Virus record (IMG/VR): IMGVR_UViG_3300030107_003216
Span: 38,002-92,582 of that record
DNA: 54,581 nt
Source: a virus
Direction: 5' to 3' (one strand)
The notes under the pieces are model-generated. The model had not been told where the DNA came from. It saw only the letters and a program-made list of their open reading frames with translations, and searched no databases. Position numbers and translations under genes: made by a program. Shown here in pieces: positions 22,888-54,581 of this stretch. Each line of letters opens with the position of its first letter. The stretch's first letter is position 1.

Positions 22888-24396
22888 TTATTCCTCCAAC
22901 AATACTGCAACATCTGTTGAATAGAATAACTGTGCAATTGACATAGCCGCAAGGAAACTATTCTTAGTTACTTTAACAGGGTCAACAACATTCTGTAAGT
23001 TTTCTATTTTACCTGTTAAAGCATTGAATCCTATTCCATTAGAAGGAATAATTTCTGTCATTGTTGCGCCTACATCTAAATTACTGTTTGCAATTAAAGT
23101 TCTAATTGGTTCATGGAGGGCATCAACCAACCATGTTAAATCATACTTTAATTTAGTATTAGTTTCAATACCAGCAAGTGCTAAAGTTAATCCTCCGCCA
23201 ACAACAATACCTTCTGCTAATGCTGCTTTAGTTGCATTAAGCGCATCATCAAGTCTTTCTTTCTTTTCTCTCATCTCAATAGAAGAACCAGCACCAACTC
23301 TAATCGTAGCAATTCCACCCTTTAGGCGAGTAATTCTGCTCTTAATTCGACCAGCATCATATCCTGTCATATCCTTTAGCGTTTCTTTTAGACGATTAAT
23401 TCGTGATGTAGTATCGCCATCAGCACCAACAAAGGTAGTTTTCTCTTTTGTAATTATAACCTGTTCACAAGTACCAAACTCATCTATGGTAATGTTTGTT
23501 GGGTCGTCTTTAGAATCAGCATTGTAAATCTCTCCACCAATCAAAGTTTTAATGTCACCCAATTCATCTAATTGAGCATCACCAAAGTTAGGCGCAAGTA
23601 TTACTGCACAATCAACAGTCTTATTCAGAATATTCATTAATAGATTATTCAATGAAGAACCCTCCATTCCTTTACATAGAATAAGCAAAGGTCTTTTCTG
23701 CGAAGCCGCTAATTCTAACATTGGCAATAATTCACCAAAGTTTCTAAATGGAATATTAGAAAGGAATACTAATGGCTTATTGAATACTACTTTACCTTCA
23801 TCATTAGCCATTAAATGACTAATGTAACCTTCGGGTATTTCCATTCCCTCTCTAACCACTAATTCGGTTAAATGTGATTTAGATTCTTCAACAGTTACTA
23901 CTCCATCTCTCCCCACTTTCTCAAGTGCGTCAGCAATTAATTGGCCCATATCAGAATCATTATTTGCGGCTATTGTGGCAATATCAAGAATACCACTATC
24001 ATTTACAGGATAGGAGGCTACATCTAAATAGTGAACAATTTGCTCTTTAGCATCCTCCATCTGCTGATTAAATTCTTGAATAGACATTTTACCTAATGAA
24101 TCCATAATTCTATGACAAATTGCTTGAGCCAAAATACAAGCGGTAGTGGTTCCATCTCCACTACCTTCTTGTGCTTTACTTGCTAAGTTTTGTACTAACT
24201 GAATTCCCATTTGAACATAAGCATCTTCATGTGAAATATACTTAGTAATTGTAACTCCGTCATTAATTACAACAGGAGGATTACCTTGTAAAATTACAGT
24301 CTTTGCTTGCGGCCCTAATGTTGGTTTAACTGTATTAGCAACCAAATCAATTCCTTGCAATAACTTCTGCTTTACTTCTTCTCCATTGATAATCAT
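22888..24396 (-). CDS. groEL: Group I chaperonin (GroEL/Hsp60)
   Basis: 502 aa, slightly shorter than bacterial GroEL (about 545). Diagnostic segments include 'NTVKPTLGPQAKTVI', 'NDGVTITKYI', 'GSGDGTTTACILAQ' (ATP loop), 'GRDGVVTVEESK', 'KPLLIL'-type apical strands and 'ERLDDALNATKAALAEGIVVGGGLTL'. These mark the bacterial-type (group I) rather than the archaeal thermosome. It lacks the Gly-Gly-Met tail. It forms a folding chamber with the GroES encoded immediately upstream, likely for virion proteins. Capture from bacteria or a host that holds both chaperonin types is inferred. Confidence 0.92.
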   Translation of the reverse strand: MIINGEEVKQKLLQGIDLVANTVKPTLGPQAKTVILQGNPPVVINDGVTITKYISHEDAYVQMGIQLVQNLASKAQEGSGDGTTTACILAQAICHRIMDSLGKMSIQEFNQQMEDAKEQIVHYLDVASYPVNDSGILDIATIAANNDSDMGQLIADALEKVGRDGVVTVEESKSHLTELVVREGMEIPEGYISHLMANDEGKVVFNKPLVFLSNIPFRNFGELLPMLELAASQKRPLLILCKGMEGSSLNNLLMNILNKTVDCAVILAPNFGDAQLDELGDIKTLIGGEIYNADSKDDPTNITIDEFGTCEQVIITKEKTTFVGADGDTTSRINRLKETLKDMTGYDAGRIKSRITRLKGGIATIRVGAGSSIEMREKKERLDDALNATKAALAEGIVVGGGLTLALAGIETNTKLKYDLTWLVDALHEPIRTLIANSNLDVGATMTEIIPSNGIGFNALTGKIENLQNVVDPVKVTKNSFLAAMSIAQLFYSTDVAVLLEE

Positions 24397-27578: not shown

Positions 27579-28433
27579 TTATTCCCCTATAAAATTAATA
27601 TCCTTTCCTTTCATTTCCTTTACTGTATCAAAACCAAGAAGGGATATAATCTTCTTAGTTTCTTTGTGGATATTCCATCTTCTGAACCCTGTTTTTTCAG
27701 AAATCAAAACCGAAGTAATATCATTTCTAACAAAGACATTTGCAGTTATCCAACAAACTGCCGCAAAATAACTCTGCGCTCTATTATGTTCTGCTCTATT
27801 CAGAACAGGTTCTATTCTTTCTAAGACCTGTCTTGCTTGGAGATAAAACACATTGTCATCAGTAATTAGATTCAATACTCTTTGAAGGCTAAAAGAAGGA
27901 TTAGTTTGCTTTAGGATTCTATTACCATAATGCTGGTTAATCTTTCTTGTTAATCTCATTACTCTTGTTTTATTACAATCAAACTCGGAACATATCTCCT
28001 TGAAAGTATATGGTGTACCATTTTCTTTCAAAGCATAATGCACGATGGCGGCCCCTCGTTCTTCATAAGAATAGTTAGCCATTTTCTTTGCTGTATATAA
28101 TTCAAGATATATCTTCTCGACTCTTTCACCCAAATTCATTTGGGGTGCAATAGCGGCTAATGTCATATTACAGTGCATTAGCCCATTTTGCACATTCTTA
28201 GGAGTAACACTGTTCTTGCCAAACTTATTGAATTTAGAAGAACCTTTACCGCTAATTACTGAGCCTAATTTACCATTATCTGCTGAATGCACAACATCTC
28301 CTGTTTTATTCAAAATATGAACATTCTGTTCAAAGATTTCCTGTACTAAAACAAGTCCACAATCGTTGCAGATTCTTTCTCCCATTCTTTCATCAAAATA
28401 ATTCTCTGTTGCACCGCATTCATTACATTTCAT
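27579..28433 (-). CDS. tfb: Transcription initiation factor TFB (TFIIB homologue)
   Basis: 284 aa from 'MKCNECG'; GAG lies upstream of this ATG, and two earlier in-frame ATGs overlap the previous gene. The zinc ribbon is C3, C6, C22, C25 ('ICNDCGLVLVQE'). A B-reader/linker with 'SVISGKGSSKFNKFG' follows. The cyclin repeats include 'YSYEERGAAIVHYALKENGTPYTFKEICSEF' and 'AQSYFAAVCWITANVFVRNDITSVLISEKTGF'. It would recruit host RNA polymerase to viral promoters with TBP. Archaeal TFBs run about 300 aa, so it is full length. Confidence 0.88.
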   Translation of the reverse strand: MKCNECGATENYFDERMGERICNDCGLVLVQEIFEQNVHILNKTGDVVHSADNGKLGSVISGKGSSKFNKFGKNSVTPKNVQNGLMHCNMTLAAIAPQMNLGERVEKIYLELYTAKKMANYSYEERGAAIVHYALKENGTPYTFKEICSEFDCNKTRVMRLTRKINQHYGNRILKQTNPSFSLQRVLNLITDDNVFYLQARQVLERIEPVLNRAEHNRAQSYFAAVCWITANVFVRNDITSVLISEKTGFRRWNIHKETKKIISLLGFDTVKEMKGKDINFIGE

Positions 28434-29658
28434 TAAAATCAACTCTTTCATTGTCATTTGGTTTTTTAATTAGGTATCTTCTTATTGTTGATACTATTTT
28501 TATTGTAAAAGTGTCATTAAGCAAGGCTAATGCTCTTGCCGCAAATTGGTCGCCTAATGGCGAATCTGAAGTCATATTATCTATACAAATCGGCCCTCTC
28601 CACTGCCAAGAGTTTTTAGGCATCTTTGGTGGAATCTCCCATTCTGACGAGTCTTTTATGGCTAATTCTGCCTCATATTCTGCTAATTCTTCTCGATATT
28701 TAACCATCATCTCAGCGAATTCACCATCTCTATATTGAGGTTGTCGAACATAAGTCTTTACCATTTGAATTTGGGATTTGTATTTATCATTCGTTAGCAT
28801 CCAATCATATTCCTTTCCATGAACATAAATCTTTTCTAATTCGCCTTTCTCATAAACGGCTTTTAGTCGAGAACCATGTTGTAATAGCAAATCATTCACT
28901 AATTGAATTGCTCTCTTTTCAACAAGGTCTGAAGTTCGGTTTTGTTTCAAAAACTCAATCATTAGAGTCAATTCTGAATCTGAAGGTTTTCTGCCAACGG
29001 TTCTCTCAAAAAGATTAGCAGGAGAAATGTACTTCCATCTGCTTTTCTTATGTCCTTGAACATAAAAAGAACAATAGGATTCTAACTCCTTATTTTTAAT
29101 TACTCCCCATGTACCGTCACTAACTTCAACTGCACATTCTTTAGCACTAATTTGTTGAATATTTAGACGACATTCAATCTTCTCAAAGTTATCAAAGAAA
29201 TGATAAGGCGCACGATTCTCTAAACAATACTTGATATTTTCAGATAGGGAAAGACTACTCATCAAAGTTTTCATTAGCACAGGGGCTTCTTTCTCAAAAC
29301 AAGATTTGAATGTAACTCTTGCTAAGGCATTACAAATGGTATTTAGGCTCTCAGCCTTTCCATTAATATAGTATCTAATACCTTCTTTAGAAACAATGAT
29401 AGGTAATTTTTGAATATAGATTGTATGTTCATATTCATTACTTTCTCCATAGTGATTGTAATATCCTCGGTGCTTTCTAACTGCTAATTCCTTTTTCCAC
29501 CAATTAACAAGCCCTGCATGAACAGGGTCTTTTTTGTTTCTAATGAAGTAACAATGATTGTTACTGAATCGTTTAGTTTCGCTTTTGATTTTGGTTTGGG
29601 AATATTGACCTGCATCATTTGGTTTTTGTACTTGTAAAATTATTTCTGTCATTATCAT
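28423..29658 (-). CDS. Large protein of unknown function upstream of TFB
   Basis: 411 aa from the ATG at 29658 (GTG one codon earlier, ATG two codons later). The N-terminal part has 'CYFIRNKKDPVHAGLVNWWKKELAVRKHRGYYNHYG'. A central domain follows ('TIYIQKLPIIVSKEGIRYYINGKAESLNTICNALARVTFKSCFE'), then helices, and near the end 'WEIPPKMPKNSWQWRGPICIDNM'. No motif I can name. It overlaps TFB by 11 nt, so it may be co-expressed with it. Confidence 0.6.
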   Translation of the reverse strand: MIMTEIILQVQKPNDAGQYSQTKIKSETKRFSNNHCYFIRNKKDPVHAGLVNWWKKELAVRKHRGYYNHYGESNEYEHTIYIQKLPIIVSKEGIRYYINGKAESLNTICNALARVTFKSCFEKEAPVLMKTLMSSLSLSENIKYCLENRAPYHFFDNFEKIECRLNIQQISAKECAVEVSDGTWGVIKNKELESYCSFYVQGHKKSRWKYISPANLFERTVGRKPSDSELTLMIEFLKQNRTSDLVEKRAIQLVNDLLLQHGSRLKAVYEKGELEKIYVHGKEYDWMLTNDKYKSQIQMVKTYVRQPQYRDGEFAEMMVKYREELAEYEAELAIKDSSEWEIPPKMPKNSWQWRGPICIDNMTSDSPLGDQFAARALALLNDTFTIKIVSTIRRYLIKKPNDNERVDFNEM

Positions 29659-42495: not shown

Positions 42496-42612
42496 ATGAA
42501 TTGGAAAGAAACAGAAAATTACAAGAATTTTATCAAGAATGTAAAGAAGTACGGTATGAGTAAAACACAGTGGCGCAGATTGCGTCATGTTCAACAGGGG
42601 GTTAAACAATGA
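42496..42612 (+). CDS. Very small basic protein
   Basis: 38 aa: MNWKETENYKNFIKNVKKYGMSKTQWRRLRHVQQGVKQ. Begins M-N-W-K-E, close to the late-protein tag. 'MSKTQWRRLRHVQQG' could be a DNA-binding helix. Its stop overlaps the next ATG. Confidence 0.5.
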   Translation: MNWKETENYKNFIKNVKKYGMSKTQWRRLRHVQQGVKQ

Positions 42613-44813: not shown

Positions 44814-45095
44814 ATGACATGGAAAGACAGAATTAAGAAACAACAACTTAATGAAACTTTGTTGAATAGAAATCTCCTAAAAATACAAGAAGATATGGAA
44901 AATAAATTGATGAAAGATTCATCCACTATTTATGAGTTTCTTTTAGAGAAGGTTTTTTCTAATGATAGAGATAATAAAACATATAGAGAATTAGAAGATA
45001 TGACAGAAAATCTTAGATTTGATACGCTGAATTTATTAGAGAAAAAAATGAAAGAATACATTTCAGAATTAGTGGATATAATTGAGAGTGATTAA
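44814..45095 (+). CDS. Late protein with N-terminal MTWKD tag (1)
   Basis: 93 aa, MTWKDRIKKQQLNETLL... Helical and charged. Start fixed by the conserved tag; the frame is open a few codons upstream. First tagged gene of the late operon; the 140 nt before it hold only a doubtful 23-codon frame at 44719. Function unknown; likely virion or scaffold associated (inference). Confidence 0.6.
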   Translation: MTWKDRIKKQQLNETLLNRNLLKIQEDMENKLMKDSSTIYEFLLEKVFSNDRDNKTYRELEDMTENLRFDTLNLLEKKMKEYISELVDIIESD

Positions 45096-45096
45096 T

Positions 45097-45396
45097 ATGA
45101 CATGGAAAGATATACTAAAAGAAATTTATCCTAAAGGAGAAGAACCGAGAGGGTATAAAAGAAGTCAAGAATTAAAAAGAATGGCCTATAAAATTATGAA
45201 AGATAGGTATGGGGAAAAGGAGTTTAGATTAACAAGCCCAAGAAAGCATAGTCCAAAAATGAGAGGGGAATACGAGCATTTAATTGAATTATTGAGAGGC
45301 GGTATGTCGCCTGATATGGCGGCTAAACAACCCTATGTTCCTAAACCACGCACAACTAAAGAGGAAGATGATGCAGGAGAAGGATGGGAAAGGTGA
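45097..45396 (+). CDS. Late protein with N-terminal MTWKD tag (2)
   Basis: 99 aa, MTWKDILKEIYPKGEE..., then basic ('KRSQELKRMAYKIMKDRYGEKEFRLTSPRKHSPKM') and 'YEHLIELLRGGMSPDMAAKQPYVPKP'. Start 1 nt after the previous stop, 3 nt after the TAA region. Unknown function. Confidence 0.6.
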   Translation: MTWKDILKEIYPKGEEPRGYKRSQELKRMAYKIMKDRYGEKEFRLTSPRKHSPKMRGEYEHLIELLRGGMSPDMAAKQPYVPKPRTTKEEDDAGEGWER

Positions 45397-45401
45397 TTAA
45401 T

Positions 45402-45596
45402 ATGACATGGAAAGATATAATTAAACAAGACGAGCAAAGCAGAATAGAAAGATTTAGAAGCCATTTAGAAAAGAACCCTTTTTTGAAAACAAAACATGGG
45501 GCAGAAGCAGAAGCACTTATTCCTCAATTACAACAAGCAATAGGAACTCCCCAATTTGAACAATTGGCTTCTTCTATTACTTGGTATAAGATTTGA
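45402..45596 (+). CDS. Late protein with N-terminal MTWKD tag (3)
   Basis: 64 aa, MTWKDIIKQDEQSRIERFRSHLEKN... Helical. The upstream in-frame GTG/ATG codons are less likely because the tag marks the start. Unknown function. Confidence 0.6.
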   Translation: MTWKDIIKQDEQSRIERFRSHLEKNPFLKTKHGAEAEALIPQLQQAIGTPQFEQLASSITWYKI

Positions 45597-45606
45597 TGTG
45601 ATTGAT

Positions 45607-45903
45607 ATGACTTGGAAAGATGGTATTAGAAAGAATGAAAGCGAAATAGAAAACATGCTAACTGACTTAAAGGATAAACTTAGAGATGCTTTATCCTATA
45701 AACCAGAAGAGGTAAAGAACGAACAAGGGCAGTTTATACGAGAAGAGGTTGAGCCGGTGCTTGAAGCATTTAGAGAGGCTAAAGAAGCAATAAGGTATTT
45801 AACTGAAGAATTAGCAGAATATGGTGAAACATTAGGCGTATGGGATGGTTCCTATGGTTATGATTATTTGCCATCAGGTGATTTTACTAATGAAGATGAT
45901 TAA
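45607..45903 (+). CDS. Late protein with N-terminal MTWKD tag (4)
   Basis: 98 aa, MTWKDGIRKNESEIENMLTDLKDKLRDAL..., a helical, acidic body ('REEVEPVLEAFREAKEAIRYLTEELAEYGETLG') with an aromatic C-terminus ('DGSYGYDYLPSG'). Unknown function. Confidence 0.6.
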   Translation: MTWKDGIRKNESEIENMLTDLKDKLRDALSYKPEEVKNEQGQFIREEVEPVLEAFREAKEAIRYLTEELAEYGETLGVWDGSYGYDYLPSGDFTNEDD

Positions 45904-45904
45904 T

Positions 45905-46126
45905 ATGACATGGAAAGATGACATTAAAAAAGATGATTTCGGGGTTGGGCCAATTACTACTTTGAATAATCTTTTTGAGGCAATCCGAATAGCCCTAATA
46001 ACTAATAAAATGGTTATGAACTCTAAAACTTCTGAAATAAGCGAACAAGATAAAGGGCTTCTTACAAGCAGTAGCCGCTCTTTAGATAAAGCACAAAAAC
46101 AAATTGAGAGAATGATGAGGCGATAA
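45905..46126 (+). CDS. Late protein with N-terminal MTWKD tag (5)
   Basis: 73 aa, MTWKDDIKKDDFGVGPITTLNNLFEAIRIALITNKM... followed by 'SSSRSLDKAQKQIERMMRR'. Helical. Unknown function. Starts 1 nt after the previous stop. Confidence 0.6.
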   Translation: MTWKDDIKKDDFGVGPITTLNNLFEAIRIALITNKMVMNSKTSEISEQDKGLLTSSSRSLDKAQKQIERMMRR

Positions 46127-46127
46127 T

Positions 46128-46388
46128 ATGACATGGAAAAAACTACTAAAACAAAGAAGCGATTTCAAATGGACTGTTCGTGAAAAATTAGATGATTTAA
46201 TAGAGGAACTTGCTAAAACAGAAGAAGCAAAAGAAGAAGCAGCGAGTATTTCTGATATAGACAGACTGCTGATGCCGGAAATATCTATTATTAGTAACCT
46301 AATGAAGTATATTGAAGAATTAGATAGAGATAAGTTTAATCTTTATCCTTCAATAGACCAACCTAACCCTGAAGAATATGTTGAGTGA
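46128..46388 (+). CDS. Late protein with N-terminal MTWK tag (6)
   Basis: 86 aa, MTWKKLLKQRSDFKWTVREKLDDLIEELAKTEEAKEEAAS... Helical hairpin body like tagged protein 5. Unknown function. Confidence 0.6.
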   Translation: MTWKKLLKQRSDFKWTVREKLDDLIEELAKTEEAKEEAASISDIDRLLMPEISIISNLMKYIEELDRDKFNLYPSIDQPNPEEYVE

Positions 46389-46393
46389 TTACT

Positions 46394-46501
46394 ATGACTC
46401 GATGCACATTACTTGATACTTGGTTTGATGCTAAATCTAAAGAATTAGATAAGGCAGAAAAAGAGAAGAAGAAAGATTTGATTACAGGTGAAAAGAAATG
46501 A
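46394..46501 (+). CDS. Very short untagged protein
   Basis: 35 aa: MTRCTLLDTWFDAKSKELDKAEKEKKKDLITGEKK. Its TGA overlaps the next ATG, and its last codons (GGTGAAAAGAAA) provide the next ribosome binding site. Possibly a leader whose translation helps the next gene. Confidence 0.4.
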   Translation: MTRCTLLDTWFDAKSKELDKAEKEKKKDLITGEKK

Positions 46502-46872
46502 CATGGCAAAATGTAATTAAAAATGAACCGACTATTTTAATTGAAGGTCTAAAAAATATATTAGATGAAGCACTTGATGAAATATCTGATGAAGAAGGTG
46601 CAGTATATCAAGGAAATAAAAGAATAAAACATAATGGTGGTTCTATTAGAATTACGCTTCATGTTGAATCAACCCCTCCTAATCAAATGGCAAGAGTATC
46701 TTTTACAGGTAAAACAGGAATTGACTTTGATTACCAAATTTATAAATTAACAGAAGAAGGTAAAAAATGGGAAGGCGGTTTTGTTGGAGATAGTAATGAA
46801 TCTATAAGTGAAGAAATACAAAGAAAGATTTTATCCGTTGCAGATAAAATGCCAATATATCAATATTATTAG
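46498..46872 (+). CDS. Late protein with N-terminal MTWQN tag (7)
   Basis: 124 aa, MTWQNVIKNEPTILIEGLKNILDEAL..., then a beta-rich domain 'GGSIRITLHVESTPPNQMARVSFTGKTGIDFDYQIYKL'. Unknown function; unlike the other tagged proteins in body sequence. Confidence 0.6.
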   Translation: MTWQNVIKNEPTILIEGLKNILDEALDEISDEEGAVYQGNKRIKHNGGSIRITLHVESTPPNQMARVSFTGKTGIDFDYQIYKLTEEGKKWEGGFVGDSNESISEEIQRKILSVADKMPIYQYY

Positions 46873-46882
46873 GTGAAAAGAA

Positions 46883-47260
46883 ATGACTTGGCAAGATATA
46901 TTGAAGGTTGATAATATATATGATACCTCAGACCCTTTATATGATTCTGAGGCAGAAGAAAGAATTAGAGAATTAGGACAATATTTTGATGAAGATATTG
47001 ATAGGCAGGAATTAGAAAAGCATTTAGAAATTGAGTATAATGTCGGAAGATTTACTGAAATTAGTGATAGAGATTTCAAAAAAGAAATGAAGAAGTTAAT
47101 GGATGATGCCCCTAATTCTCATCACATGGATTATAGGATTTTTATAGATATTGAAATGAATGATTGGTTTCAATGGCTTGCAGGAGAAATAGATTTATAT
47201 TTCCCAATTAAAAACGCATATAAAGAAATGGTCGAAGATATAAGAGGAAATACATTTTGA
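46883..47260 (+). CDS. Late protein with N-terminal MTWQD tag (8)
   Basis: 125 aa, MTWQDILKVDNIYDTSDPLYDSEAEERIRELGQYFDEDID..., acidic, with 'IFIDIEMNDWFQWLAGEIDLYFP'. Unknown function. GGTGAAAAGAA precedes the ATG. Confidence 0.6.
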   Translation: MTWQDILKVDNIYDTSDPLYDSEAEERIRELGQYFDEDIDRQELEKHLEIEYNVGRFTEISDRDFKKEMKKLMDDAPNSHHMDYRIFIDIEMNDWFQWLAGEIDLYFPIKNAYKEMVEDIRGNTF

Positions 47261-47270
47261 GGTGAGAAAT

Positions 47271-47606
47271 ATGTCTTGGCGAGATATTATCAAAGCGTTT
47301 CCCGATGTAATCCATGATAAAAACGGCGAAGTATTTCACTTTGTTGGCAGACAAGGTAACTTAGGTAAATATTCTAACGGTGAAAAAGAAGTCCTATTCG
47401 ATGAAAAGAAGGCTAAACTCAATGCGCCATCTAAAGGATTAACTATGGATGATGATGTCAAATTTCAAATAGAGGATGATACTAAAGGCACATCTTTTCA
47501 AGAATTCAAAGAGGCTATGGCTGTCGCAGTAACTACTACTTCTTCGCCAGCACTGTTTAATACTACATATAACCAGCGAAAAAAGAAAAAGGAGGATGAG
47601 GAATGA
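47271..47606 (+). CDS. Late protein with N-terminal MSWRD tag (9)
   Basis: 111 aa, MSWRDIIKAFPDVIHDKNGEVFHFVGRQGNLGKYSNGEKEVLFDEKKAKLNAP..., beta-rich centre and basic/acidic tail 'QRKKKKEDEE'. GGTGAGAAAT precedes the chosen ATG. Unknown function. Confidence 0.6.
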   Translation: MSWRDIIKAFPDVIHDKNGEVFHFVGRQGNLGKYSNGEKEVLFDEKKAKLNAPSKGLTMDDDVKFQIEDDTKGTSFQEFKEAMAVAVTTTSSPALFNTTYNQRKKKKEDEE

Positions 47607-49054
47607 GTAAAAAGAAAAAGACAAGTACCACCAAGAAAAATCAGAAAGAATGGAAAGGTATGAAAATTACTCAAAACACTTCAAAGTCTGAATTTATTCA
47701 AGACTACCTTGCTTGGAAAAGAGCATGTACCGGAATCAAAAGTGGAAAAATGATGGTTCAAGGTATTCCAACATTGTATGATTTTTTGGTTGAGCATGTT
47801 ACTTCGACTTCAATGAGAACAGGTAGCAGAAACCGAGGCCATGTGAATTCGGGTGCAAATAAATACATCAAGTTACTTGACAATCTATTAGAGAGAAAAT
47901 TCTATACTGTTGGTGATGAAATGATTATCAAAAATTTAGGAGATGCTTTAATGGCTCTGAAAGGTACAGGAAAAGATACTGAAGAATCACCTGCATTAGA
48001 CCCCGGTTTTATTCTATTTACTGAAAGTAAAAGAGGTCGAAGAGGACAAAAGTTAGCACCTAAGATTGTTCAAGGACATTATCGAACAGAAGCCTATGCT
48101 AAGAAAAACAAAACTTCTGCCGCACCCGACCATTGGTTCACAGGTACTAATTTACCACACAAGGCTTTGTTTAACGAAAGTGCTGATGATGAATTTAAGT
48201 CAAGAGGATTAGCAGTAATTATGCAAGATGTAAAAGGAAAACTTGCAGACATTACAAATGAAGTTGATGATATTCCTATTCCCGAAGATGATAATATCCA
48301 AGAATATGAGGCTCTTGGTGACATTGAACAATTCTTTGACAAGGTTGTTAGAAATGTAGGATTTTGGAGTAAAGATGGTCGTCTATTAGTTGGGCCTCTC
48401 AAGAGAGAATTTGAAAACACTCAATTCAAATTAGGTATTCAAGACCAAGATGTAATTAGAGAGTTTCCAAGATTAAAGCAAAAAGATGCACCCGCAGGTA
48501 AAATTACATCAGTTACATTTGAGGCTTCACCACTAACATTAGTGACTTTAGTTGATAGAGCATTGATACGACAACAGCCATCTGGCCGTAATGGTCGAAG
48601 TGCGCCTAATGATGAATTTGCTTGGCAGAATGCAATTAGAACAGGATTCGATTATAGAATAGCCGGAGAAGAAGAATTAGTGTTCCCTGTAAATAGTGTT
48701 AGAATAGCAAAAGAATTAGCAAAGATACCGGAGATTAAACGATTTGCTCAAGGTCTTTTGAGAAAGACTAACTTATACAATGGGCCTAATTTCCAAACTT
48801 CTAATGCGGCTAAACTCTTAGCAGAAAAGAAATTTAATTATTCTCCTACTTCTCAACAAGCAATTCTTAATTTGTTTAGAAAAGAAAAAGCACAACCTAA
48901 ATCTATTCAGTTAAAATTAACTAAGAATGCTATGAAGGCTCTTTTGAATCAATCTGTAATTACTCGAACAAGAGATTTGCAGAGTATGAATGCGCCTAAC
49001 ACTGATGAGAAAATTGTTTTGAAAGGAATGTGGCAAAGCCTTCTATGGGGTTGA
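47603..49054 (+). CDS. Large late protein, probably structural
   Basis: 483 aa with a very basic head (MSKKKKTSTTKKNQKEWKGMK) and no MSW tag. 'GSRNRGHVNSGANKYIKLLDNLLERKFYTVGDEMIIKNLGDAL', 'VTFEASPLTLVTLVDRALIRQQPSGRNG' and 'NAKAL...NQSVITRTRDLQ'-type helices are seen. I do not recognise the family. Size and position between small tagged proteins and the terminase-like gene fit a virion component. Confidence 0.5.
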   Translation: MSKKKKTSTTKKNQKEWKGMKITQNTSKSEFIQDYLAWKRACTGIKSGKMMVQGIPTLYDFLVEHVTSTSMRTGSRNRGHVNSGANKYIKLLDNLLERKFYTVGDEMIIKNLGDALMALKGTGKDTEESPALDPGFILFTESKRGRRGQKLAPKIVQGHYRTEAYAKKNKTSAAPDHWFTGTNLPHKALFNESADDEFKSRGLAVIMQDVKGKLADITNEVDDIPIPEDDNIQEYEALGDIEQFFDKVVRNVGFWSKDGRLLVGPLKREFENTQFKLGIQDQDVIREFPRLKQKDAPAGKITSVTFEASPLTLVTLVDRALIRQQPSGRNGRSAPNDEFAWQNAIRTGFDYRIAGEEELVFPVNSVRIAKELAKIPEIKRFAQGLLRKTNLYNGPNFQTSNAAKLLAEKKFNYSPTSQQAILNLFRKEKAQPKSIQLKLTKNAMKALLNQSVITRTRDLQSMNAPNTDEKIVLKGMWQSLLWG

Positions 49055-49058
49055 TTTA

Positions 49059-49724
49059 ATGGCAGTCAATAGAAAGCGTTGCGGTTTGTGTCAAGCAGAC
49101 AATAGGCAAGAATTAGAGGATGCTCTTGAAAACGGTACTATGACTTGTGATGAAATAGATGCGGCTAATGGTTGGAGAAGCGGAACTGCGGCCCAACATC
49201 AAAGAAATCATATGGGGGATTATGTTATGTCGGCTAATCCTAAATGTGTTTTATGCACAGACCCAATGAGAAAACATTACGAACAGGCATTGAGTAATGG
49301 AGAGATAGACAGTGAAGCGGTGGCTTTGGCATTAGATACTACAAAAGCACAAATTCAACGACATATGAAACACCACTTAACTCCAATCGTGCAGCAATCC
49401 GCAGCCGCCATAATTGCTAAGAAGGAGGTAAATGAAATTGATTTACTTTCTAACAATGTTGAGAAATTAGATGCGAGATTAGAGCAAGTGTTTAATGAAT
49501 TAGGAAATGACTTAGACCCTAAGATGATTGATGCTCTAACTAAGTTAGCAAGAGAAATTAGAGAGTCACTAAAGTATCTAATGGAATTCAAAGGCAAACT
49601 TATTCATAAGCGACAAGATACTGTTATTGTTGCACAAATGCAAATTGTTCAAGAAGTGTTAGCACAGAATAATCCTGATATTTGGTTAGATATTAAGAAA
49701 AGAATGCAGGAGAAATTACAATGA
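49059..49724 (+). CDS. Terminase small subunit-like DNA-binding protein with duplicated zinc-finger/HTH unit
   Basis: 221 aa. Two similar units: 'KRCGLCQADNRQELEDALENGTMTCDEIDAANGW...AAQHQRNHMGDY' (8-55) and 'PKCVLCTDPMRKHYEQALSNGEIDSEAVALALDTTKAQIQRHMKHHL' (61-107). Each is C-x2-C, a helix, an HTH-like step and H-x(3-4)-H. The C-terminal half is helical ('LSNNVEKLDARLEQVFNELGNDLDP', 'IRESLKYLMEFKGKL'). This matches a phage protein group usually placed as small terminase or packaging-site binder. The large terminase is not in this window. Confidence 0.55.
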   Translation: MAVNRKRCGLCQADNRQELEDALENGTMTCDEIDAANGWRSGTAAQHQRNHMGDYVMSANPKCVLCTDPMRKHYEQALSNGEIDSEAVALALDTTKAQIQRHMKHHLTPIVQQSAAAIIAKKEVNEIDLLSNNVEKLDARLEQVFNELGNDLDPKMIDALTKLAREIRESLKYLMEFKGKLIHKRQDTVIVAQMQIVQEVLAQNNPDIWLDIKKRMQEKLQ

Positions 49725-49849
49725 GTTGGGAAGATATAATCAAAATGAGTTTTACAGAACAGTTGATTAGACAAGCATATTCAAAAAAGACCAAAGAGGA
49801 ATTAATAGATAAAATAGTTGAATTATTAACAGGAGGGGATGAAGAATGA
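49721..49849 (+). CDS. Very short tagged protein (10)
   Basis: 42 aa, MSWEDIIKMSFTEQLIRQAYSKKTKEELIDKIVELLTGGDEE. Tag plus one amphipathic helix only, so almost all of it is the tag. Its end (GGAGGGGATGAAGAATG) is the ribosome binding site of the next gene. Confidence 0.55.
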   Translation: MSWEDIIKMSFTEQLIRQAYSKKTKEELIDKIVELLTGGDEE

Positions 49850-50169
49850 GTTGGAAAGAGATATTAAAATCGTATGAATTAAGTGAAGCGATTAAAGACT
49901 TCATTTATAACACAGAAATAAAACCTAATATGTATGAGTTTTTACCAGAAGCAAATGATTCTGTTAGGGATTTTAAGAACAATGACCCTAAAGGATTTGA
50001 ATTATATCTTAATGATATTTTTGATTACATTACTTCTAAAGTATCAAAGGAAGAATTAACTGAATTTTATAGAGAAATGTATTATGATGATGAAAAAGAT
50101 GAAGAACCGTATAACCCTCGTAAAATTCAAAAGATAATATATGAGGCTATGAATGCAAGAAAGCCATAG
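49846..50169 (+). CDS. Late protein with N-terminal MSWKE tag (11)
   Basis: 107 aa, MSWKEILKSYELSEAIKDFIYNTEIKPNMYEFLPEAN..., acidic, helical ('PKGFELYLNDIFDYITSKVSKEELTEFYREMYYDDEKDEE'). Unknown function. Confidence 0.6.
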   Translation: MSWKEILKSYELSEAIKDFIYNTEIKPNMYEFLPEANDSVRDFKNNDPKGFELYLNDIFDYITSKVSKEELTEFYREMYYDDEKDEEPYNPRKIQKIIYEAMNARKP

Positions 50170-50180
50170 GAGAAATTACA

Positions 50181-50498
50181 ATGAGTTGGCAAGATATTCT
50201 TCACAAGAAAGGTAAAGCCCGAAGAAAGGCTGGCTCTAAAAAAGCAAAGAAAAAATTAGGCAAGCCCCGAAAAGGAAAAAGATTTGTTAAAAGAACAAAG
50301 TCTGGCAGAAAGGTTTCATACGGTCAATCGGGTAAAGCCAAAGATGGTGGCGATAGAATAAGGCCCGGAACTTCTAAGGGAGATGCTTATTGTGCAAGGT
50401 CAAATAAAATCAAAGGCGATTGGAGAAGTGACCCGAATAGCCCGAATAATCTAAGCCGTAAAAAATGGAAATGCCACGGAAATAAATCAAGAAGGTGA
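50181..50498 (+). CDS. Late, extremely basic protein with MSWQD tag (12)
   Basis: 105 aa, MSWQDILHKKGKARRKAGSKKAKKKLGKPRKGK..., about a third Lys/Arg. The C-terminal 'GDRIRPGTSKGDAYCARSNKIKGDWRSDPNSPNNLSRKKWKCHGNKS' matches a small domain seen in marine T4-like phages (recalled, not searched). A DNA-condensing internal head protein is a fair guess: histone- or protamine-like charge plus a targeting tag. Confidence 0.6.
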   Translation: MSWQDILHKKGKARRKAGSKKAKKKLGKPRKGKRFVKRTKSGRKVSYGQSGKAKDGGDRIRPGTSKGDAYCARSNKIKGDWRSDPNSPNNLSRKKWKCHGNKSRR

Positions 50499-50502
50499 TA
50501 AT

Positions 50503-51414
50503 ATGGATTGGAAAGATGTTCTAAAAAATGATGTTGAGAAAGGACTCTTTAGTAGGTCTAAGTTTCCTGATGAAGAGTCTGAGCAATTTTATAATATGCA
50601 ATTTAATAATGCCTATAATTGGAGTGGCGACCCATATAGAAAAAAGCAATTCCAAAAACAAGTAATGGCTTTACCTAAAGCACAAAGAACCGTTGATGGA
50701 ATTAAAAGTGTTTTGACCGCAATTGGTTCACCTTCTAAATTTACTTCAGCGAAACCCCAACAACAAAATATTGTAACTGAAACTGTGGATAGTATTGATA
50801 ATGTTTGGTCTGAGGGTTCTGACTCCGGAAAACATTTGACTAACCCATATAAGAAATCAAATAAAATGCTGAAAGGCTCGAAGCCCATGAATAGATGGGG
50901 GCCAATTATTGATGAAATTATGTCGGATGGATATAACAGAACTTCAAGAGGCATTATTGAAAGTTTATACAGTTATCAAAACGATAAAAAGAAATCAACA
51001 AGAAATATTCCTACTCAAAGAGCAATAAACATGTATCTTAAATCGAATCCTGAATATATTAGAATGGGTTCATCAAGTTATGGCACAGAATATAGACTAA
51101 AAGATGATGTTGCTAAATTAATGAAGGGAATGGAAACCGCAACCCGTTCAGCAGAATTATGGATTGCTAATGATTATGACTTAAATCAAATGGCACTTGG
51201 CTACATTAAAAGTTTAATTCAATCTGGACACGACAAAGCCCAAGTAATGTCTAAGTTAAGCGCATGGCTACCTAATATGATGGTTCATCACAGTGGTTTT
51301 ATGGATGAGTTAGAAGGATATGGTGAAATAGACGCTATTAGTGATGTTGAATGGGCTAATGTAGCGGAAACTTTTGCAGACCATGTTGATGATTTGGTGG
51401 AGGATTTGCAGTGA
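50503..51414 (+). CDS. Late protein with MDWKD tag (13)
   Basis: 303 aa, MDWKDVLKNDVEKGLFSRSKFPDEES... Gln/Asn-rich middle ('KPQQQNIVTETVDSIDNVW'). A winged-helix-like part 'SRGIIESLYSYQNDKKKSTRNIPTQRAINMYLKSNPEYIRMGSSSYGTEYRL' is followed by helices. Unknown function; probably packaged or scaffold. Confidence 0.6.
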   Translation: MDWKDVLKNDVEKGLFSRSKFPDEESEQFYNMQFNNAYNWSGDPYRKKQFQKQVMALPKAQRTVDGIKSVLTAIGSPSKFTSAKPQQQNIVTETVDSIDNVWSEGSDSGKHLTNPYKKSNKMLKGSKPMNRWGPIIDEIMSDGYNRTSRGIIESLYSYQNDKKKSTRNIPTQRAINMYLKSNPEYIRMGSSSYGTEYRLKDDVAKLMKGMETATRSAELWIANDYDLNQMALGYIKSLIQSGHDKAQVMSKLSAWLPNMMVHHSGFMDELEGYGEIDAISDVEWANVAETFADHVDDLVEDLQ

Positions 51415-53834
51415 GTCGCAATTGGTTTCAGATTTTGAAGAAACCTGTTGGTTATCCGTACATTGACGACCCAACAATGTTTGCCTTTGACATAATTTCT
51501 GCTAATAACACCCAAGATTTGATGGACAAAATAAAAAATAATGAGATTTCTGATGCTGATTTACAAGTTTTGGCAAGAAGAATCAATCAGATTAAGGGAA
51601 ATGATGAAAAAATAAAAGAAATTTTAGAAACATACAAAAATTATCCCGATAAAGACCTAAATGTTCAACAAATTAAGTCAAATTTAGAAACTCTTTCTGG
51701 CATGATGCCAAAACAAACAGGCCAAAAGCCACAAGGTAATGTTGAAGAGATTGAAAAACTCGTAAAAGAGATAAAAGAAGCATTTTTTAGTGATAAAAAG
51801 GCATTAGTCGAGAAATTAAAGAAGTTAATGCCAGCAAATAAAGACAATTGGAAAAGATACCCTGAAGCAAGAGATATTATTGCGTATCAAGAGCGTCTAA
51901 ATGCTAAAAATGAGCAAAATATGATAGCATTTGAAAATAATCCTGATGAAAATGATGAAAATGTCAAAAAATTAGCAGAATATTTTGGTTCTGAGTATAA
52001 AGATGGTGTAATTTTGCTAAAAATTAGAAAAATAGGAGAATTTTCTGAAAAAATCAATCCTATTTTGTGGAAAGACGAAAATCAAAAAAATTGGGAGTTA
52101 AAAAGAATACAATCTAAAGATGGAAAGAGCGTTGATGAAATTAATCCCGATAAAAAAGAAATTGTTGAGAAAAAGAAAGAAATAAAAAAGATTTATTTGG
52201 AATTAAAGAAAAAATATGGTATTCAATTAATATTTGGTGGTAAAAAAGAAGCACTACAAGATATTAGAGGAAAAAGTTTGGAAATAGTTTATTCTGGAAT
52301 AGAATATAAAGTGAAGCCAATAAATTCTGCATCAGATGTTCAAAAGTATATTCGTGGATATGAAGCAGTTACGGGAACTCCTTCTCAATTAATACCAACA
52401 TGGCTTTCCGGCGTATCTCCCGATAAGCAAGATTACAATAAAGTAGCATCTCAAGCAACAGTTGGTGGAACCAACATACAATTCCCAGACATAATGTTCT
52501 TAGAAAGAGGGAGTGGAAATAAAAAGAAATTAACTTTCAATCCTTATGGTTCTGCTATATTGTATCATTCTGTGTCAAGTGAAGGTTGGTTTAAGACCTA
52601 TTTTAACATGGCAAGAAAAACAGAGTTTATTTCAGAAGAAAGAGCAAAGTCTTTGATAGTGAATGATATTGTTGATACTCTTGCTGGAAAACATGGGCGC
52701 ATGAAAGAGAGTTTCAAGTATGGTATTCCTCTAAGAAGGTATGCTTTAGACTCAAAAGACAGAGCGATTGACTTCACAAATGAAGAGTCGGCTAAAAGAA
52801 AAGTCAAGAAAAAAATAGAGGGGAGTCCTACTTTAGCACAGGAAATAAATGATAAAAGAAATGAGTTGAGAAAAGATACTATTGACAAACTTGAGCAGGG
52901 ATGGACTCAAAAAGAAGCCGTGGCTTTCCTTGACTATTGGAAAGAAAAGAATTTAGATACCCAAGGAAAACTGAAAGTACATTGGTTTTCCACTCCAATA
53001 TCTGAAAAAGAATTGCTTTTAGCAGAATATGACAACAACGAAACTAACATGATAGCCGATTCTGAATATGCACAGATAGAAGTGGCTTGGGCGAATAAAT
53101 GGGATGAGGACAATAACCCCGAAGAGTTTGACCCGTTTGAGTATTATACTCCCACCACAATACTTGATGAATTAGATGGGTCTTTCAAAAGAAATCCAGC
53201 ATATAAGGATGGTAAATTAAAAGACACTACTAAGGAAAAAGAAAAGGAAATCAAAGAATTAGAAGCGACTCTTGAAGGCAAAAGCAGTGCTGAACAAAAA
53301 AGAATCAGAAATGCTATTGCTCAAAAGAAGGCCAACATTAAGAGATTCCAAGAAATGTCAGAAAGCAAAGGACAAATTAAAAGAGATTTACTACCACGAT
53401 TACGAGAAATCGTAAATTCAGTGGATAATTACCCTTCTATGGTTGCTCAATTAGCACAGACAAAAAAGAATGCTCTCAACTCAATTATACAAGAAGTTGA
53501 TACTAACTTTAACAAATTGGCTGTTCTTAGCGCAGATGCGGCAATAGGATTCCTTGCAATATTGGCAGAATATTATCCAAAGAAGCCGGACTTCATAGGT
53601 GAAGCATACGATAAGATAGACAAAAATCCTTCTCAAGCAAAGGAAATTGCAGAGAAAGAATTAGGTACTCAAGTGATGACTACCTTCTTAACTGATATGA
53701 AAGGTTTAATTATGAAGTCCTTTGAGAACCAACTACAACATTTGGTTAATTTCCCGACTATGTATGATAAGAGGCATTTATCCAACATTATTAAAGTCTT
53801 TACAAGCAGTGATGTTAATTTATTGGAGGTATAA
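51411..53834 (+). CDS. Large late protein, probably virion-associated
   Basis: 807 aa, begins MSRNWFQILKKPVGYPYID, a degenerate tag. Long charged helices and coiled coils ('IKELEATLEGKSSAEQKRIRNAIAQKKANIKRFQEM'). One folded block 'WLSGVSPDKQDYNKVASQATVGGTNIQFPDIMFLERGSGNKKKL...NPYGSAILYHSVSSEGWFKTYFNMARKTEF' lies near residues 325-405. Family not recognised; the size suggests a portal, scaffold or injected protein. Confidence 0.5.
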   Translation: MSRNWFQILKKPVGYPYIDDPTMFAFDIISANNTQDLMDKIKNNEISDADLQVLARRINQIKGNDEKIKEILETYKNYPDKDLNVQQIKSNLETLSGMMPKQTGQKPQGNVEEIEKLVKEIKEAFFSDKKALVEKLKKLMPANKDNWKRYPEARDIIAYQERLNAKNEQNMIAFENNPDENDENVKKLAEYFGSEYKDGVILLKIRKIGEFSEKINPILWKDENQKNWELKRIQSKDGKSVDEINPDKKEIVEKKKEIKKIYLELKKKYGIQLIFGGKKEALQDIRGKSLEIVYSGIEYKVKPINSASDVQKYIRGYEAVTGTPSQLIPTWLSGVSPDKQDYNKVASQATVGGTNIQFPDIMFLERGSGNKKKLTFNPYGSAILYHSVSSEGWFKTYFNMARKTEFISEERAKSLIVNDIVDTLAGKHGRMKESFKYGIPLRRYALDSKDRAIDFTNEESAKRKVKKKIEGSPTLAQEINDKRNELRKDTIDKLEQGWTQKEAVAFLDYWKEKNLDTQGKLKVHWFSTPISEKELLLAEYDNNETNMIADSEYAQIEVAWANKWDEDNNPEEFDPFEYYTPTTILDELDGSFKRNPAYKDGKLKDTTKEKEKEIKELEATLEGKSSAEQKRIRNAIAQKKANIKRFQEMSESKGQIKRDLLPRLREIVNSVDNYPSMVAQLAQTKKNALNSIIQEVDTNFNKLAVLSADAAIGFLAILAEYYPKKPDFIGEAYDKIDKNPSQAKEIAEKELGTQVMTTFLTDMKGLIMKSFENQLQHLVNFPTMYDKRHLSNIIKVFTSSDVNLLEV

Positions 53835-53836
53835 TT

Positions 53837-54581
53837 ATGGTAAGATTAGTACAAGAAGTTGATTATGATATTTCTGAAAATACTATTAAGGATATTGTTA
53901 AAATACCATCAGGAAGAAAAAAGAATCTTGCTTTCAAAAAAGAAGTGGATAAATTTACACAATTTATTCGAGGCGAGAACTTAGATAATCAAAGTGATTT
54001 AAGAAATAAATTCCAAAGAGAATTAAGGCAAGCAGTTGAAGAAGCGGGAAAATCAAAGTCTGGTTCTTCTGCGGAAAGAAGTCAATTAGCCACAGTATTT
54101 AGAAATATAAAAGTTGAAAATCTTAGAGGCAGTACAATTTCTCCTGCTCAATTAGCCACCACTGTAAAACTAAAAACAGGTACAGATGGCAGGTTTTTGT
54201 TTAATGTCAAAAATATACAAATGATTAATCTTGATGAACTTGAAAAAGCAATAAACTATATTGAATCATTGAAGGCATCGGAAGAGGGATTACCAGAAGG
54301 TTATGAAGTAATGGCGCATAATATTTCCTTAATGTATGATTATGTTAAAGAAGAAAAAGATGCTTTTGGTGAAGCCAAAGAAAGGCCAAAGGAAAGAGTA
54401 GGAAGATATAGAACTACCTATACTAAAGAAAAACAAGGTGTTGATATACCCCCTCTTGATTTTAATTTTATTTATGGTGCGATTGATGCTTCTAAGGGTG
54501 CTTATCGAAAAATTATTTATGAACATTGGTCGGAAACGGCAAAAAAATATACTAATTTCAAGGAGAAGTTTGATGCTTTTT
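53837..54581 (+). CDS. Late protein, truncated by the window end
   Basis: 248 codons visible with no stop; GGAGGT is 7 nt upstream. 'MVRLVQEVDYDISENTIKDIVKIPSGRKKNLAFKKEVDKFTQFIRGENL' then 'SSAERSQLATVFRNIKVENLRGSTISPAQLATTVKLKTGTDGRFLFNVKNI'. No late tag and no recognised family. Possibly structural by position. Confidence 0.5.
   Translation, partial: MVRLVQEVDYDISENTIKDIVKIPSGRKKNLAFKKEVDKFTQFIRGENLDNQSDLRNKFQRELRQAVEEAGKSKSGSSAERSQLATVFRNIKVENLRGSTISPAQLATTVKLKTGTDGRFLFNVKNIQMINLDELEKAINYIESLKASEEGLPEGYEVMAHNISLMYDYVKEEKDAFGEAKERPKERVGRYRTTYTKEKQGVDIPPLDFNFIYGAIDASKGAYRKIIYEHWSETAKKYTNFKEKFDAF

Follow-up and report, generated by a model that had tools for sequence, protein, structure and literature searches.

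A shared eight-residue start on diverse late proteins of a magrovirus as a candidate docking and cleavage tag for head cargo

Why should thirteen late proteins of one virus, otherwise unrelated, begin with nearly the same eight residues? The question is raised by a stretch of viral DNA of 54,581 nucleotides (the window), which covers positions 38002-92582 of a 92,582-base (92.6 kb) IMG/VR record, IMGVR_UViG_3300030107_003216. The minus strand of the window carries the early genes and the plus strand the late genes. A first-pass annotation, made from the sequence alone, had noticed these starts and proposed that they are an address signal of an archaeal virus that sends a varied cargo into the capsid and is perhaps removed by a prohead protease. 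The analysis described here indicates that the common start is probably a two-part docking and cleavage tag by which varied internal head proteins are loaded into the prohead of a magrovirus.

All 13 open reading frames are present, each with an ATG and a ribosome-binding-site-like stretch upstream, and at least four further full tags lie beyond the window. While the existence of a shared tag was borne out, the nine-position formula initially given for it is one hydrophobic position too long and matches none of the 13 starts. An eight-residue form, M-[STD]-W-[KQRE]-[DENK]-x-[IL]-[KRH], matches all of them, and the general form of the tag is M-x-W-x-x-[I/x]-[IL]-[KR]. The bodies behind it are as varied as had been described, ranging from 42 to 303 aa in length and from -17 to +31 in net charge, and they include both a protein consisting of the tag and a helix-like stretch and a protamine-like body. 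The genes of this block are listed below, together with tags in L009, a locus of the same record that lies past the window end and carries on the late genes.

44814..45095, plus strand: tagged late protein, 93 aa, MTWKDRIK; no Pfam family
45097..45396, plus strand: tagged late protein, 99 aa, MTWKDILK; no Pfam family
45402..45596, plus strand: tagged late protein, 64 aa, MTWKDIIK
45607..45903, plus strand: tagged late protein, 98 aa, acidic (net -14), MTWKDGIR
45905..46126, plus strand: tagged late protein, 73 aa, MTWKDDIK
46128..46388, plus strand: tagged late protein, 86 aa, MTWKKLLK
46498..46872, plus strand: tagged late protein, 124 aa, MTWQNVIK
46883..47260, plus strand: tagged late protein, 125 aa, acidic (net -17), MTWQDILK
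47271..47606, plus strand: tagged late protein, 111 aa, MSWRDIIK
47603..49054, plus strand: p483, conserved head-block protein without an N-terminal tag; no Pfam family
49059..49724, plus strand: p221, conserved and untagged; lies after p483 and before the second tagged block; weak HTH match
49721..49849, plus strand: smallest tagged protein, 42 aa, MSWEDIIK and a short helix-like stretch
49846..50169, plus strand: tagged late protein, 107 aa, MSWKEILK
50181..50498, plus strand: tagged protamine-like basic protein, net +31, MSWQDILH
50503..51414, plus strand: tagged late protein, 303 aa, MDWKDVLK; no Pfam family
51411..53834, plus strand: p807, large, MSRNWFQILKK (slightly shifted tag)
L009, full tags: 2140 MSWRDIVK; 2415 MTWQTILK; 2588 MSWENIIK; 8209 MTWQNILK
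L009, looser tags: 6113 MKWFNILK; 11546 MWRDLIK

Two further genes had been described as carrying degenerate forms. The start of p807 is indeed a variant of the tag, as its orthologues in other magroviruses begin with MNWFNVLK, MSWFEQLK, MSWQILLK or MSWSNILK. This protein occupies a constant slot in related genomes, and nearly every orthologue sampled bears the tag. Neither fold nor sequence comparison gave a convincing match for it, and in a structure model of low local confidence residues 5-9 make up a short N-terminal helix of their own that precedes the body. The gene at 42496, which reads MNWKETENYKNFIKN..., lacks the [IL][IL]K half and is not counted. The C-terminus of p483 is W-rich and tag-like in relatives (MWQSLLW, SWIDILRN, QWREILKGL). 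Pfam, PHROGs and PADLOC named just a handful of 120 tagged bodies.

Beyond the window end, the record encodes TerL, portal, a DNA ligase, an S78 prohead protease and an SU10-type major capsid protein (MCP). The protease (L009:14842-16071) belongs to PF04586, with 36 bits against a gathering score of 21, and the adjoining MCP gene starts at 16076 of L009. The nearest named relatives of the MCP are in the haloarchaeal Druskaviridae (HCTV-1-like), at 24%. Magroviruses are predicted viruses of marine Poseidoniales archaea, with genomes of ~90-110 kb, opposed morphogenetic and replication modules, PolB, ligase, S78 protease and a halovirus-like MCP (PMC12999244, PMC10160649). Judged by its size, opposed modules and gene content, the record is a magrovirus (Magrovirales). 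Its putative PolB gene was assigned by appearance.

The distribution of the tag was examined in 13 near-complete magroviruses, which are related to one another and in which genes were called mechanically. The strict tag begins 97 of the 602 late genes upstream of the MCP, where composition alone predicts 0.13, and none of the 286 genes downstream of the MCP or the 966 genes of the early strand. The motif is thus kept in relatives, and the observation that no early protein carries the full tag extends to them. Each genome has 4-17 strict tags, and more if the loose form is counted: a looser core, M-x(0-4)-W-x-x-hydrophobic-hydrophobic-[KR], adds ~90 genes, a handful of them downstream of the MCP. 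TerL and portal are flanked by tagged genes, and the 2128 kb surrounding MCP genes contain no antisense tags. When 2.9 million viral contigs were scanned blind for the DNA pattern, at least 119 loci were returned. Among the matches listed (119 loci), 102 match magrovirus proteins directly, and the contigs of L155, L200, L233 and L256 are assigned to magroviruses through another locus or the MCP (65% for the MCP of L155). The same pattern gave 49 single, scattered matches in a cellular-genome collection. Across all loci, the relaxed tag begins 808 distinct proteins whose genes have a ribosome-binding-like stretch, and the first 710 of these, clustered by body, fall into 360 groups, including 268 singletons. 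A text search of the literature found no paper describing this tag.

Residues and codons were tallied in 112 late-strand tags from the 13 genomes; one of these tags, G001 25043, probably matches by chance. The search pattern itself fixes Trp-3. At the positions left free, position 6 is Ile in 88 of the 112 and position 2 is Ser or Thr in 83, while position 8 is Lys in 98 although several other residues were permitted. All six codons are used for Leu-7 and all three for Ile-6, and AAA and AAG are near background for Lys-8. Because synonymous codons vary at positions 6-8, selection appears to act on the peptide and not on the DNA. Codon 2 is skewed, with AGT making up 82% of Ser codons against a background of 22%, and some other tag codons tend to A-ending forms. 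Pairwise identity of tag versus body was not used as evidence, since it is circular for the W selected by the search pattern.

The front half of the tag, M-x-W-x-[DE]-I, recurs in two other proteins at the opposite end. The S78 protease runs on into a long C-terminal region, which in most relatives, down to 41% protease identity, ends in M-[DS]-W-x-[DE]-I-[HN]-K. Of 130 distinct protease C-termini, 124 have the Trp, with Met at -2 in 113 of the 124, and W400 does not vary among 56 proteases that range down to 41% identity. An ~80-aa protein encoded directly upstream of the ligase, with an N-terminal part that by eye is heptad-like, has an identical C-terminal peptide (Trp in 109 of 114, Met at -2 in 108 of the 109). 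Together the C-terminal copies read M-[DSE]-W-x-[DE]-I-[HN]-K, the core of which is the front half of the tag. The context with Met at -2 surrounds none of 2406 internal Trp residues on the early strand; the only near matches, all from one family, carry Leu at that position. A protease and a small protein with a common C-terminal peptide recall protease/scaffold pairs such as lambda C/Nu3. On sequence grounds, the simplest reading would be a common docking peptide that the cargo carries N-terminally. Because a nearly identical peptide is found on all three, cargo, protease and scaffold probably use one docking site. The protease had no meaningful PDB match by sequence. A structure model of it has long helices at 304-383 and a separate C-terminal helix at 400-408, but its overall confidence is low (pLDDT 48) and it is too weak to use.

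The second half of the tag resembles likely processing sites in other proteins. A site resembling [IL][IL]K, [NG]x[LI][LM]K, is conserved near the MCP N-terminus, past a variable Gly-rich stretch, and the protease has F.ILK near its own N-terminus and EAKF[DNE][IV]xK at a domain boundary. In 48 protein families, [IL]LK is strictly or nearly conserved at six sites, three of them in the protease and one in the MCP. The residues that follow the tag Lys, which are outside the search pattern, were tallied in 360 unrelated tagged families. Pro never directly follows the Lys (0/360), compared with 11-24 occurrences at the following positions, and an acid stands at +2 in 37% against a background of 14%. 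In the clade of the window, the protease's own sites are mostly K-S-D and K-Q-[DE]. The +1/+2 context and the conserved sites support, short of proof, cutting after Lys-8. The HK97 protease cuts after Lys too.

The tag is separable from the bodies that follow it. Homologues of tagged bodies, up to 75% identical, occur in Roseobacter, Pelagibacter, Vibrio and cyanobacterial phages, and those examined at full length are untagged, with a start sequence of their own. The protamine-like body at 50181-50498 has homologues 45-63% identical in marine bacteriophages, of which two full-length ones are untagged. PAP2-like and pentapeptide-like domains are found among tagged bodies. Additionally, the tag is found internally, for instance in a protein where it separates a GNAT domain from a variable C-terminal part.

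Taken together, these observations suggest how the tag may work. Its first part, M-x-W-x-[DEN]-I, would be a short helix that docks a protein in the assembling head, at a site common to cargo, protease and scaffold that would belong either to the inner wall of the capsid or to the assembly core. Its second part, [IL][IL]K and then a residue other than proline, often with an acid after it, would be a cleavage site of the S78 protease, which would cut after Lys-8 and free the cargo within the maturing head. The freed bodies would be kept in the head and later delivered with the DNA. As a module the signal is portable, for hundreds of unrelated bodies carry it. The initial proposal of a capsid address removed by a prohead protease, in our judgement partly supported, fits all tests run and gains backing from independent sequence evidence: tags on the late strand only, interleaving with packaging genes, an S78 protease adjoining the capsid gene, the core peptide at two C-termini, a cleavage-like context past Lys-8 and separability from the bodies. 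Docking, cutting, packaging and delivery are steps that we infer from these patterns.

Several observations weigh against this reading. Distant magrovirus clades have tagged blocks 4-10 kb downstream of the MCP, only on the MCP strand, and one tagged slot recurs ~1.6-2.9 kb downstream of it; the link between the tag and the head genes is therefore not absolute. The MCP, portal, TerL and ligase lack an N-terminal tag, and many homologous bodies within magroviruses have no detectable tag. The C-terminal copies hold His or Asn where the tag has Leu or Ile, and the weakness of the protease model counts on the same side. The absence of Pro at +1 could also reflect a helix ending there. Finally, EAKF-DILK may be structural, because it lies at the end of the protease fold and a haloviral homologue has KFGVVSK there.

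Some of the same evidence would suit a different role in the head. If the tag were an assembly handle, tagged scaffold or core parts would shape the head and then be destroyed or released, with no delivery to the host. The near-identical peptide on the protease-scaffold and the 80-aa scaffold-like protein, the small size of many tagged proteins and the fixed slot of p807, tagged in nearly all sampled orthologues, are consistent with such a handle. It is nevertheless unlikely, as assembly factors are expected to be conserved and 360 families in 710 proteins are too diverse; bodies have PAP2-like and pentapeptide-like domains, GNAT stands beside internal tags, and basic bodies occur untagged beside TerL in bacteriophages. 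The tag could instead direct ejection proteins to the portal/neck or the tail lumen and not to the head interior at large, given that tagged genes surround TerL and portal and that some lie 2-10 kb downstream of the MCP in distant clades. This destination is decidedly less probable than a handle, for strict tags are absent from the 286 downstream genes in the clade of the window, and the C-terminal copy is on the protease and the scaffold-like protein but on no recognised tail protein.

Roles outside the virion structure fare worse. A short N-terminal helix with one Trp is a frequent shape for binding motifs, and the tag might, once in the cell, act as a membrane, chaperone or degradation signal by binding a host factor and not a part of the viral head. 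This is very improbable, because the cellular-genome collection gives scattered single matches only, early-strand proteins do not use the tag, and the same core is on the viral protease and the scaffold-like protein. We give the least credence to the idea that the common start is a translational or recombination element, a copied DNA or RNA leader with the peptide as a by-product. Tagged genes have similar upstream ribosome-binding stretches and a preference for AGT at codon 2, but synonymous codons vary at positions 6-8, and the peptide is also found internally between domains and, in a related form, C-terminally, where a start-region function is inapplicable.

The preferred reading, a docking and cleavage tag for internal head proteins, can be widened into a general protein-delivery code, which we offer only tentatively with all its parts taken jointly. 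An eight-residue tag, half scaffold docking peptide and half protease cut site, would make any late-block gene virion cargo, each virus would carry a dozen or more exchangeable proteins, and some bodies common to bacteriophages would be carried into abundant ocean archaea. If the reading is true, the tag is, to our knowledge, the first capsid address reported from a virus of archaea; it would be far more widely used than in T4, and the suggested binding target would be the docking site of the scaffold. The sequence rule predicts hundreds of virion-packaged, mostly unannotated proteins. Magroviruses are a major marine virus group known only from metagenomes, and the tag would offer a convenient way to test for natural protein delivery into archaea.

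Further observations concern the cargo. Small basic bodies at 50181-50498 of the window, L227:8862-9164 and L123:8047-8253 are 44-75% identical to marine bacteriophage proteins, and in Roseobacter phage CRP-7 such proteins are encoded directly upstream of TerL. These common bodies suggest gene exchange between archaeal and bacterial viruses. A T4-style tag on the common cargo in cyanomyoviruses was considered and rejected, as the homologue in S-TIM54 is a longer fusion that lacks such a tag. Proteins at L103:13386-14222 and at G007 position 84082 (within L145) have a GNAT or other N-terminal domain, an internal tag and a variable C-terminal part, with two internal tags near each other in G007; judged by this layout they look like polyproteins with a cut site. 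In tandem tagged paralogues (L091:496-3990, L104:2666-5800, L179:2201-7966), a second N-terminal block is common, e.g. NIQISSQRTGSK-YV-PDE, followed by divergent bodies. The tagged proteins at L155:1306-2223 and L179:13058-13918 have HExxH-like motifs (LSHEYAHVLFH, HETIHQF) and no Pfam match, and they are possible metallopeptidase cargo. In the slot ~1.6-2.9 kb downstream of the MCP, seen in many magroviruses (e.g. L013, L032, L034, L037), the tagged gene begins MW[FWK]-ILK... and its body differs between viruses, so the slot is a possible cargo exchange slot.

Other features belong to the record at large. The early strand encodes a Cpn60/TCP-1 family chaperonin (22888-24396; Pfam E 5e-40) and an RFC-like AAA protein, and a TFIIB-type zinc ribbon protein at 27579-28457 is probably a transcription factor of the virus. 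The genes for the 80-aa scaffold-like protein and the protease flank that of a late ATP-dependent DNA ligase of 837 aa (L009:12289-14799), whose ligase domain is confined to 252-437; the ligase gene is on the strand of the head genes, apart from the replication genes. The end of the record, 54438-54581 of the window, resembles its start, L009:1-111, with a common reading frame (MLLRVLIEKLFMN...); the genome is therefore probably circular or circularly permuted.

Among known systems, the closest parallel is the one that the first-pass annotation had drawn, with the capsid-targeting sequence (CTS) of phage T4. IPII and IPIII of T4 start with MKTYQEFIAEA and IPI with MKTFKEF. In the T4 CTS, residues 4 and 7 target the protein, cleavage is controlled by residues 8 and 10, and a length of ten residues suffices (PMC9026906). 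Both systems place an 8-10-residue N-terminal peptide on unrelated late internal proteins, have a prohead protease and differ in cargo among relatives (PMC9026906, PMC5694885), and both peptides have the order aromatic-x-acid-hydrophobic-hydrophobic with identical spacing (YQEFI in T4, WKDIL here). The parallel fails at the cutting motif: T4 cuts after L/I-x-E, which the magrovirus tag lacks, whereas the cut here would probably follow hydrophobic-hydrophobic-Lys, and the sequence differs. Because of this difference, the magrovirus tag would work like a CTS without being a member of the T4 family by sequence. Moreover, T4 has three IPs against 4-17 strict tags per magrovirus genome, and only in the archaeal virus is the peptide core also C-terminal on the protease and the scaffold-like protein. 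In the haloarchaeal relative HCTV-1, the tag is absent from the N- and C-termini of head proteins.

Other systems share single aspects. The packaging signal of phage P1 DarB is N-terminal and directs proteins into the head for delivery, but the Dar proteins have no common N-terminal consensus and the signal is >9 and <=30 residues long (PMC9024508). Two diverged paralogues among the head proteins of SPN3US/phiKZ have an identical N-terminal stretch, with presumed cutting by the prohead protease; in contrast to the magrovirus tag, these propeptides are mostly long (>100 aa), are found on few proteins and are cleaved after A/S-x-E (PMC5694885). In the engineered P22 system, cargo fused to scaffold enters the shell via the coat-binding scaffold part. 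That arrangement is man-made and uses a large C-terminal scaffold fragment, while the magrovirus one would be natural and only eight residues long (PMC9962691).

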